NCBI RefSeq assembly: GCF_900110185.1
Contig: NZ_FOCT01000002.1
Span: forward strand, 310,001 to 374,000
Direction: 5' to 3'
Length of the DNA: 64,000 nucleotides
From: Nitrosospira multiformis
Lineage (GTDB): Bacteria; Pseudomonadota; Gammaproteobacteria; Burkholderiales; Nitrosomonadaceae
Shown here: positions 44,803-47,488 of the stretch, one piece after another
Numbering within the stretch: position 1 is the first letter of the stretch
How the letters are laid out: the number at the start of each line of letters is the position of its first letter
Notes under the pieces: generated by a model
The model's input: the letters and a program-made list of their open reading frames with translations, nothing else
Told to the model about the DNA's origin: nothing
The model's database searches: none
Position numbers and translations under genes: made by a program

Positions 44803-45123
44803 TCATTTTCGTAATTCGCAATCCCCCAGACGTTCGCATACGGCGAGCAGGTCAATATCAGTGTGGCCTGTTTGATCAATGAAGGCAATTGCCATTTCTT
44901 CCCGGTAATCATAACCACCGCCCCCGGTCTTTCTGAACGCTAATCCGCCGGAGAATGAAGCTTCTTCATCTTTCATGAGTCCCACGCGTACGGCGGTTCT
45001 GGGTGACATATATCCGTCCGCTGTGTAGAAAAAGACGCTGTGACGCAGGGCTGCAGCCAGTACCCATGCGACAATCACGGTACTCGATATCGCAACAGCA
45101 GTAGTGATAGCGGCTAGTTTCAT
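44803..45123 (-). CDS. Small unknown protein with one N-terminal membrane helix
   Basis: A 106-aa frame starting MKLAAITTAVAISSTVIVAW, whose first 28 residues form a signal peptide or membrane anchor. The remainder (YMSPRTAVRVGLMKDEEASF, GLAFRKTGGGGYDYREEMAI, CERLGDCELRK) is not known to me. Two cysteines at the end could pair outside the cytoplasm. The frame is open to an ATG at 45198, which would add 25 mostly basic and polar residues before the helix; no ribosome binding site clearly decides. It lies downstream of the terminator of the 25-codon gene, so it is a separate unit. Confidence 0.55.
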   Translation of the reverse strand: MKLAAITTAVAISSTVIVAWVLAAALRHSVFFYTADGYMSPRTAVRVGLMKDEEASFSGGLAFRKTGGGGYDYREEMAIAFIDQTGHTDIDLLAVCERLGDCELRK

Positions 45124-45221
45124 TAAATAAATTTTCTTCTGGGCGAAGTAGAGCGATGGCTGGTAAACCTTCAAACGGATAGTCATCCGGCTACTCATTA
45201 GCTGCCGGCTTTACAACAAAA

Positions 45222-45249
45222 ACCCCATCCCTATGAAAGCGAATGGGGT
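45222..45249 (-). terminator. Rho-independent terminator behind the 25-codon ORF
   Basis: On the minus strand ACCCCAT and ATGGGGT form a 7-bp stem around a 14-nt loop, followed at once by TTTTGTT. It lies 76 nt beyond the stop of the small ORF at 45325, and no T-run stands on the plus-strand side. Confidence 0.65.
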
Positions 45250-45324
45250 GTACCGCCAGCCGTTACAATCTGGACCATTCAGGGGTTACAGGAGGAGGAG
45301 CCATTCCCCTTAGCGGTCTCAAGA

Positions 45325-45402
45325 TCAGAGGAACGCTGCCGCCACCAGTGCTACCGTCATACCCATCAAATAGGAAACGGTAAGAAGTTTTCCCATTTTC
45401 AT
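45325..45402 (-). CDS. 25-aa hydrophobic small protein
   Basis: A very short frame encoding MKMGKLLTVSYLMGMTVALV plus five more residues (AAAFL): two lysines, then one membrane-spanning stretch of about 20 residues. Its ATG is preceded by AAGGAGAAAGGGCG, one of the strongest ribosome binding sites in the window, and a rho-independent terminator follows, so it looks like a complete small transcription unit. A TATGAT sequence lies a few tens of bases upstream of the Shine-Dalgarno. A single-pass small membrane protein or a leader peptide are both possible; I do not recognise a family. Confidence 0.55.
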   Translation of the reverse strand: MKMGKLLTVSYLMGMTVALVAAAFL

Positions 45403-45997
45403 CGCCCTTTCTCCTTATGGTGAAAGACACGTCTATCATAGCTGTATTGTTAAGAATTTGTTATTTTTTTGTGATACTACTGTGTAGGACACTTATTGAT
45501 CAGCCAGGTTCCCTTCAAAGAATTTCTTCTGAAATTCGGAAAGAATGGCTGACGAAGCTGGAGGCGGCGAACGATGTTCGCTGGAGTGAGGGTCGCTGCG
45601 TAATGGTATGGTAATACGGCAATAGCAGGCAGCAGGGAAAACTGTTAATGCACATGTCTCGCCTTCCTCTCCTCTATGACACTTATAGAAAACAGGACAA
45701 GCGGAATAGTTCCGCTTCGCAGCTTCAACTTCGGGGTGGGACAGATACTATACTATTTTGGCAAAACCGGCTTGCTACCTGCTATCCTTGTTCTATTGAC
45801 GACTTGCATGAGCCAGATGCCGTAATCGCTTATAACCGCTGCTTGTAGTCATCGAGGCATGGCACAATCCCTCCAAGCCCGGTTCCATGTTGTATATCCT
45901 TTTTCCATGGAGACTATGGGACTGGGGCAAGGGTTTCTATCAGGGCAAAGATAAAGCATTCCCGCTCGTTCCCGGTTCATCCAGTCCAGTCATTGAC
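45403..45997. other. 595-nt stretch without a recognised gene
   Basis: This lies between the 25-codon ORF and the gatB stop. Near its left end is the AT-rich promoter-like region for the small ORF (TATGAT on the minus strand). A tight hairpin GCGGAA-TAG-TTCCGC occurs at 45701-45715. No ORF with a good start signal and no terminator for gatB could be identified. Confidence 0.5.
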
Positions 45998-47488
45998 CTA
46001 TTCCGTCAGCTTCTTCCTCAATATCTCATTCACCTGCGCTGGATTCGCCTTGCCTCTGGCGGCCTTCATCACTTGGCCCACCAGTGCGTTGAAGGCTTTT
46101 TCCTTGCCTGCCTTGAATTCCTCTACCGATTTCGGGTTGGCGGCCAGCACTTCATATACCAAATTCTCCAATGCGCTTGAATCGGATATCTGTCTCAGTC
46201 CCTGTGAATCGATGATTCGGTCTGCAAGGCCCTCATCCACTCCCTCGCGATTCTTCCATGAGATGCTCTCCGCATCTGCCTGCGCCCACATCTGTCTGAA
46301 CACATCCTTGGCGATCTTTCCAGAAATGGTTCCATCCTTGATGCGCAGAAGAAGTTGCGCAAGCTGTGCAGGAGATAACGGACAGACATCGAACGACCTT
46401 CCTTCATTATTGAGATAAGCCGATACCTCTCCCATTACCCAGTTTGCGCACAGTTTAGGGTCGGAAGGAAGTTTTCCTACGACTGCCTCATAATATTCCG
46501 AGATGTCACGGTCTGCGGTGAGCAAGAGCGCGTCGTACATGGAAAGTCCATAGTCATGCTCGAGCCGCGTTCGCATTTGCTGCGGCAGTTCAGGCAGCCC
46601 TTTCTTCACTTCCTCGATCCAGTTCCCGGATATCTCGAGCGGCAGCAGATCCGGATCTGGAAAATAGCGGTAATCCTGCGCGTCTTCCTTGCTTCGCATC
46701 GCGCGCGTTTCACCCTTTTCCGGATCGAAGAGGCGCGTCTGTTGCTGTATGGACCCTCCGTCTTCGAGGATTTCGATCTGCCGCCTGGCCTCGTAATCGA
46801 TCGCCTTCTCGAGAAAACGGAACGAGTTGAGGTTCTTTATTTCACAGCGGGTACCAAGCTTGTCCGATCCCCGGAGACGCACAGACACGTTGGCATCGCA
46901 GCGAAAGGAACCCTCCTGCATGTTGCCATCGCAGATGCCGATCCAGCGGACGAGCGTATGCAGTGTCTTTGCATACGCCACGGCTTCAACACTGCTGCGC
47001 ATATCCGGTTCGGAAACGATCTCAAGCAGAGGTGTGCCGGCGCGATTGAGATCGATGCCGCTCATGCCGTGAAAATCCTCGTGCAACGACTTGCCGGCAT
47101 CCTCCTCCAGATGTGCCCGCACGAGACGCACGATTTTTTCCTGCTCTTTTCCATCCTGGACGATCTGAAGCTGGATGTGCCCTCCCTCGACCACCGGCAA
47201 TTCGTATTGGCTGATCTGATAACCTTTGGGCAGGTCCGGGTAAAAATAATTCTTGCGGGCAAAAATGGAAGGCGAATTGACTTTTGCTCCCACTGCCAAG
47301 CCAAACCTGATTGCACGCTCCACCGCGCCCCGGTTCAATACCGGCAGCACACCGGGCAGCGCGAGATCGACAGCGCAGGCTTCGGCGTTGGGCGCGGCGC
47401 CAAAAGCAGTCGAAGCGCCGGAGAATATTTTGGACTCGGTCGAGAGCTGGGCATGAACCTCAAGACCGATAACGGTTTCCCATTGCAT
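45998..47488 (-). CDS. gatB: Asp/Glu-tRNA amidotransferase subunit B
   Basis: GatB activates and amidates misacylated Glu-tRNA(Gln) and/or Asp-tRNA(Asn) with ammonia supplied by GatA. The 496-aa protein has the standard length, the N-terminal [20 protein letters not shown], the [20 protein letters not shown] motif and [10 protein letters not shown], and a C-terminal YqeY-like helical tail (KTVEEF-like [33 protein letters not shown]). It is the last of gatC-gatA-gatB on the minus strand. The presence of the operon implies that Gln-tRNA, Asn-tRNA or both are made by the indirect route. Confidence 0.97.

Follow-up and report, generated by a model that had tools for sequence, protein, structure and literature searches.

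The window, meaning the whole 64,000-nucleotide stretch of Nitrosospira multiformis DNA that was analysed (G000:C5:310001-374000), carries on its minus strand a hydrophobic ORF of 25 amino acids, MKMGKLLTVSYLMGMTVALVAAAFL (45325..45402), whose ATG stands at 45402 and whose stop codon ends at 45325. A first-pass annotation, which gave no strand, had proposed here a 25-codon gene with a very strong ribosome binding site directly before its ATG and a terminator of its own, and each of these features was recovered. The Shine-Dalgarno AAGGAG (45411..45416, minus strand) is spaced as AAGGAG-N8-ATG when read from the sequence, and the stretch that it opens, AAGGAGAAAGGGCG at 45416-45403 on the minus strand, abuts the start codon and is identical across the five window orthologs. 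AAGGAG lying 3-10 nt ahead of the ATG of a 15-40-codon ORF is seen at two places in the window, compared with a mean of 1.27 in 30 Markov-resampled windows; when a hydrophobic core was also required (mean Kyte-Doolittle >= 1.9), one such ORF was left in the window and none in the 30 controls.

Downstream on the same strand, an intrinsic-terminator-like hairpin with a T run (45215..45249, minus strand) was recognised by its fold and by homology to the hairpin behind a singleton amoC. Its stem, ACCCCAT...ATGGGGT (45249-45222), begins 75 nt past the stop codon and is followed by TTTTTGTT; a 40-nt piece has a folding energy of -15 kcal/mol (z -2.87), and 3 of 200 shuffles were equally stable. The hairpin is absent from a simple terminator scan, probably because the plain stem encloses more than eight bases. 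By sequence identity, the stretch 45218..45274 (minus strand) is homologous, along with the terminator that it contains, to the 3' untranslated region of amoC. Upstream of the ORF, a consensus scan marked the -10-like hexamer TATGAT (45435..45440, minus strand), the two sites found by promoter consensus scanning showing no excess over chance (3.2 expected from shuffles). Beyond it lie four repeat units phased at 11 bp, ACACA, TCACA, TAACA and TAACA (45442..45485, minus strand), which are putative activator binding sites; 19 of their 20 letters match, a score reached by none of 300 mononucleotide shuffles, and the three-unit pattern match for the gene falls at G000:C5:355448-355474. The upstream neighbour (45998-47488) we take by its sequence to be gatB, and beyond the hairpin a 131-aa ORF on the same strand (44803-45198) has no Pfam match.

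Peptide family and selection on the frame

When 61 relatives were searched (DNA query at E <= 0.001, peptide query at E <= 10), the DNA search matched eight genomes and the peptide search 13, all within one genus; a profile search then extended the family further inside the genus, and each place was read individually. Intact short ORFs of 25-28 aa number 19 in 11 of the 23 Nitrosospira genomes, one of them starting with GTG, and no short member was found in the other 12. Residues M1, G4 and Y11 do not vary across 18 aligned rows, and S10 hardly does; outside those rows one G020 copy has R4. The family profile, run within the bacterial family, matches 15 of 125 genomes at E <= 0.001, namely 13 of the 23 in the genus, where G009 and G017 have only long relatives, and 2 of the 102 others. 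A degenerate DNA pattern applied to 84,980 species genomes returned 15 stretches, all 15 in Nitrosospira or Nitrosovibrio records. The two matches outside the genus lie in a sister genus (g3, perhaps Nitrosomonas, which is our guess). Both are stand-alone ORFs whose length is again exactly 25 aa; they read MKKGKFVAICYSLSI(T/V)VALLVQVLF and have a GGAGG ribosome binding site and repeats at 19/20.

The frame, the Shine-Dalgarno and the terminator-like hairpin are all kept in five genomes of one clade. The window version forms a single clade (support 100/100) when 22 genomes are placed in a gatB tree, and a search of the 1.5 kb following gatB in the other 17 genomes did not turn it up. Conservation of frame, peptide and ribosome binding site in relatives had been put forward as the check on the first-pass proposal, and it holds in the five-genome clade for all three and, for the peptide, in 11 of the 23 genus genomes and in the sister genus; the refuting outcome named there, a reading frame that is not conserved, did not occur. 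Judged by its sequence, the peptide is a member of an unnamed family: Pfam and NCBIfam, scanned at E <= 1 with three members of 25-28 aa, gave no family. For a 42-aa relative, matches to Nramp (E 0.017) and to a porin model (E 0.12) fell far short of the cut-off and were not accepted. Two broken family copies exist; one of them (L121, G000:C18), in the genome of the window, continues into letters that look like the C-terminal end of the 131-aa window ORF, as though a fusion had joined the N-terminal segment to it. A place in G008:C62 (profile E 0.13, one stop) is a possible further broken copy.

Selection on the frame was examined first through dN/dS and nonsense changes, both of which gave weak results, and the hydrophobicity test was added later. 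The dN/dS ratio lies weakly below 1 (0.41 for the five orthologs, 0.63 for all 19) and is lower still in frame +1 (0.27 and 0.53), so that the signal is not frame-specific; parsimony on the tree gives 0.79, with 111 of 1,000 nulls as low. Null runs free of stops (71 of 1,000) make the absence of stops weak evidence, and within close groups, where 8 synonymous and 18 nonsynonymous changes were counted, it is uninformative. There, two polar introductions against 4.0 expected are not significantly rare (p=0.20), and among the four closest amoC-linked copies six of seven changes are nonsynonymous. The 324 ORF columns contain no indel and the 1236 flank columns contain 15 (p=0.03), and substitutions in the ORF are fewer than in both flanks jointly (p=0.012; p=0.09 against the downstream flank alone).

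The layout of the peptide is a positively charged N-terminus followed by about 20 hydrophobic residues, and this property is held against drift. In 18 distinct sequences, sister genus included, positions 6-25 hold 4 polar, charged or Pro residues against 45.7 under drift, with none of 2,000 runs as low; an earlier run lacking the sister genus gave 2 polar residues against 38.8 (0 of 1,000 as low). Because some deep branches may have sat in longer proteins, stand-alone copies and subtrees were also run separately: the stand-alone 25-aa copies alone have 2 such residues against 17.4 (6 of 2,000 runs as low), and null runs were as low in 0 of 1,000 for the 25-aa subtree, 7 of 1,000 for the 26-28-aa subtree and 67 of 1,000 for the multiformis clade on its own. 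The null assumes uniform mutation, a ts/tv of 1.52 and an equal number of changes, and the result would therefore soften under strong pyrimidine bias. A hydrophobic segment of about 20 residues appears to be kept by selection, and a membrane location is predicted for it. The real small-protein gene that had been proposed is thus supported by the family, the conserved frame and the retained hydrophobicity, dN/dS by itself being weak.

It could also be the transcript of about 210 nt that matters, with a 3' end matching amoC mRNA and a frame that is incidental or dual-function. Such a regulatory RNA would fit a locus that has promoter-like and terminator-like signals of its own, a 3' end homologous to amoC mRNA ends and synonymous sites that are likewise well kept. 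We consider it very improbable: the fold of the whole predicted transcript is not more stable than those of shuffles (z -0.30), Rfam has no match anywhere in the window, and the constraint tracks hydrophobic residues.

The repeat signature and the genes behind it

Four TMACA units at 11-bp spacing, matching at 16 or more of 20 letters, precede 27 of 28 family members, with 0 of 300 shuffles as good in each case, the shuffles preserving base composition only. The exception is the stand-alone copy G008:C39 (14/20; 9 of 300 shuffles as good). Exact four-unit matches, overlapping ones counted, number 60 across 61 genomes against 2 for the reversed control, and they occur in 17 of the 61, that is, in 17 of the 37 inside the bacterial family and 0 of the 24 beyond. 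The genome of the window has 11 three-unit matches (2 in the control) at seven places, which are the window gene, an amoC leader, a BBP2 porin, a DUF6733 gene, a 66-aa relative, a broken copy and a 36-aa ORF. Among 246 other ORFs of at least 200 aa, taken in any frame and including some spurious ones, four reach 17 or more: two DUF6733-type genes (one so called by eye), a BBP2 porin and an amoC behind a family leader. Common regulation of the signature-bearing genes is well supported by these shared promoter letters, and the repeats apparently mark one regulon.

Promoters controlled by OmpR/PhoB-family regulators are expected to have direct repeats in tandem, about 11 bp apart, ahead of the -10, and this arrangement is present here. 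The Pho box consensus consists of 7-mers with a TGTCA-type core at 11-bp spacing; the repeats resemble it in this architecture and differ from it in their letters. Membership of the PhoB regulon was considered and rejected, as TGTCA or TGTAA occurs in 0 of 30 family repeat blocks. Control by PhoB was set aside because the pst region of the same genome has a different box, the stretch before pstC reading TTGTCAC GAAA CTGTAAC ATTT CCATCAT. The putative regulator is probably an OmpR/PhoB-type response regulator other than PhoB.

The N-terminal segment of the family also opens proteins of 133-154 aa that belong to a large unnamed family (LLEQYxxKSYLYGRQAQDLQ). Of the 23 genomes in the genus, 22 have 5-24 matches to it and an incomplete one has 3; beyond the genus, it is matched in 8 of 38 genomes. 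In a scored subset of 29 of these long relatives, all six with a family-like start have repeats at 19-20, and all 23 others reach at most 14. For one long relative, the predicted fold (mean pLDDT 78.9) consists of a signal helix and a two-helix hairpin; no solved structure resembles it at E <= 0.001, and its sequence profile found one structure chain, at E 0.35. Family libraries gave weak matches for the long relatives, the best being LIC10421-type (E 1.5e-4, in 5 of 16 members), which were not accepted. The long hairpin proteins are presumably secreted, the N-terminal segment apparently serving there as a signal peptide. A sub-group of this helical-hairpin family thus shares the promoter repeats and the N-terminal segment with the short ORFs, which end at 25-28 aa, before the hairpin domain; the window ORF stops at residue 25 and has only these two elements in common with the long proteins. 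Since promoter and N-terminal segment also head longer proteins, the two together behave as a 5' module. By eye, the letters past the stop of some short copies resemble the continuation of the long proteins, which suggests truncation in some lineages.

Other small proteins stand behind the same repeats. A second, unrelated kind, MIELIEFLKPALFGAPLMTVLYGIMQIWEEAPDQST, lies at G000:C44:189536-189643 (L250) and has relatives in seven other genomes, with the four-repeat promoter. This 36-aa ORF matches 8 of the 23 genus genomes at E <= 2.1e-7, a ninth match (G017, E 0.98) being taken as chance; seven of the eight promoters were scored, all at 20/20, and the eighth has an exact repeat match just upstream. 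A third kind of 38-43 aa, with a charged start and a hydrophobic tail (for example METAKMKPENSKDESTKHDNMLELVLIGLLAALVGLAS; L220, L226 and L230), stands downstream of the repeats in three genomes.

Proteins such as MgrB and SafA are small regulated single-pass membrane proteins under two-component control. The window peptide is like them in size, in its single hydrophobic segment and in having its own promoter with regulator-like direct repeats; it differs in that the three members of its family that were scanned lack a Pfam or NCBIfam match, in that the family was found, by the searches made, in one bacterial family only, and in that its regulator is putative. Size, hydrophobicity and dispersed paralogues are equally features of a type I toxin, a short hydrophobic peptide checked by an antisense RNA. 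Such peptides (Ldr, Ibs, TisB, Hok) are toxic when overexpressed, and the gene for their antisense RNA lies opposite the toxin frame or next to it. A consensus scan, which can miss one, found no + strand promoter-like site between 44000 and 47000; a strong Shine-Dalgarno together with a repeat promoter held in common with a porin argues against a toxin, as does the occurrence of a like segment at the head of presumably secreted proteins, and we regard this explanation as most improbable.

Remains of amoC and the proposed role of the peptide

According to published work, additional amoC singletons occur in most betaproteobacterial ammonia oxidizers (PMC4964001), and AmoC is thought to serve as a chaperone and to stabilise the enzyme under stress (PMC5960693). 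Six of the 19 short ORFs stand directly before a singleton amoC, ending 44-173 nt ahead of it, and in two of these cases a contig end truncates amoC; the other 13 do not stand before amoC. One of the six, a paralogue in the genome of the window (G000:C13), ends 172 nt before an amoC (Pfam AmoC E 1.9e-128), and the stretch behind that amoC is 86% identical to 45218..45274 of the window. The identity is 89%, over a shorter piece, with the stretch behind a partial amoC at G000:C26 (L070), a copy that matches only the 3' part of amoC and has the same terminator. At the window locus, which shares the amoC terminator, amoC itself is missing. A leader of this kind is not seen before several other singleton amoC genes. 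Fixed linkage to amo genes, as expected of an accessory protein of ammonia monooxygenase, is not what was found, given the 13 unlinked copies of 19 and the two sister-genus copies, around each of which no amoC match occurs within 4.4-4.5 kb. In several genomes (L060, L061, L063, L050 and L078), amoC is immediately preceded by an ORF of about 51 aa with a single hydrophobic segment, which, judged by eye, looks like a truncated AmoC N-terminus.

Remains of an amoC cassette are kept at 10 of the 13 stand-alone Nitrosospira copies. In the five window orthologs they consist of the amoC 3' part and terminator, in G015 and G022 of about 50 nt of the amoC coding start, and in two G020 copies and one G019 copy of the 5' leader, which reaches roughly to the start codon; at G001, G013:C18 and G008:C39, no amoC remains were found within 1.4 kb. 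The window cassette probably once carried amoC. The three kinds of remains would imply at least three separate losses of amoC, the alternative being that amoC arrived downstream of a stand-alone gene that was already there; the stand-alone copies of the sister genus favour an old stand-alone form.

These remains are what would be expected if the ORF were a relic, the leader of a former leader-amoC cassette whose promoter and N-terminal segment expressed amoC and whose frame is now drifting, open by luck. The six paralogues that precede amoC, the homology of the window terminator to that of amoC, and a dN/dS near 1 that is not frame-specific speak for it as well. Against it stand the sister-genus copies of exactly 25 aa with no amoC match in the 4.4-4.5 kb around each, the hydrophobicity kept among stand-alone copies, and the retention of repeats, Shine-Dalgarno and hairpin throughout the five-genome clade; on this evidence we judge a relic unlikely.

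We consider it fairly probable that the window ORF is a genuine, regulated stand-alone gene for a 25-aa single-pass inner-membrane microprotein. An OmpR/PhoB-type response regulator would bind the four TMACA units, which lie 11 bp apart and immediately precede the -10, an mRNA of roughly 210 nt ending at the hairpin would be made, and the strong Shine-Dalgarno would give high translation under the inducing condition, probably envelope or nutrient stress. In the membrane, the peptide would then work alongside the apparently co-regulated products, namely a BBP2 porin, the DUF6733 and helical-hairpin proteins and further tiny membrane proteins, its most likely part being that of a small effector of a membrane complex or a modulator of one; at several loci the singleton AmoC encoded directly downstream may also be its partner, so that peptide and AmoC could work together. 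A wider reading, which is possible and on the doubtful side, is that ammonia oxidizers have a dedicated regulon under one putative response regulator, comprising several unrelated membrane proteins of 25-43 aa, a porin, DUF6733 proteins and singleton AmoC, in which the 5' end (promoter and conserved N-terminal membrane segment) would be an exchangeable module that is free, fused to secreted hairpin proteins or placed before amoC, the free peptide modulating a stress form of ammonia monooxygenase or the surrounding envelope.

In titles and abstract beginnings of open-licence literature on amoC and Nitrosospira topics, neither the peptide nor the repeat is described; as the search was limited to open-licence papers, novelty is not proven by it. 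The gene is small enough for gene finders to miss, and if the proposed reading is true, it would reveal an easily missed layer of small membrane proteins in ammonia oxidizers. One repeat signature, and presumably one regulator, would then testably tie together a porin, microproteins and singleton AmoC. A promoter and signal-like segment passed between genes as a unit further suggests one way in which microproteins may arise.
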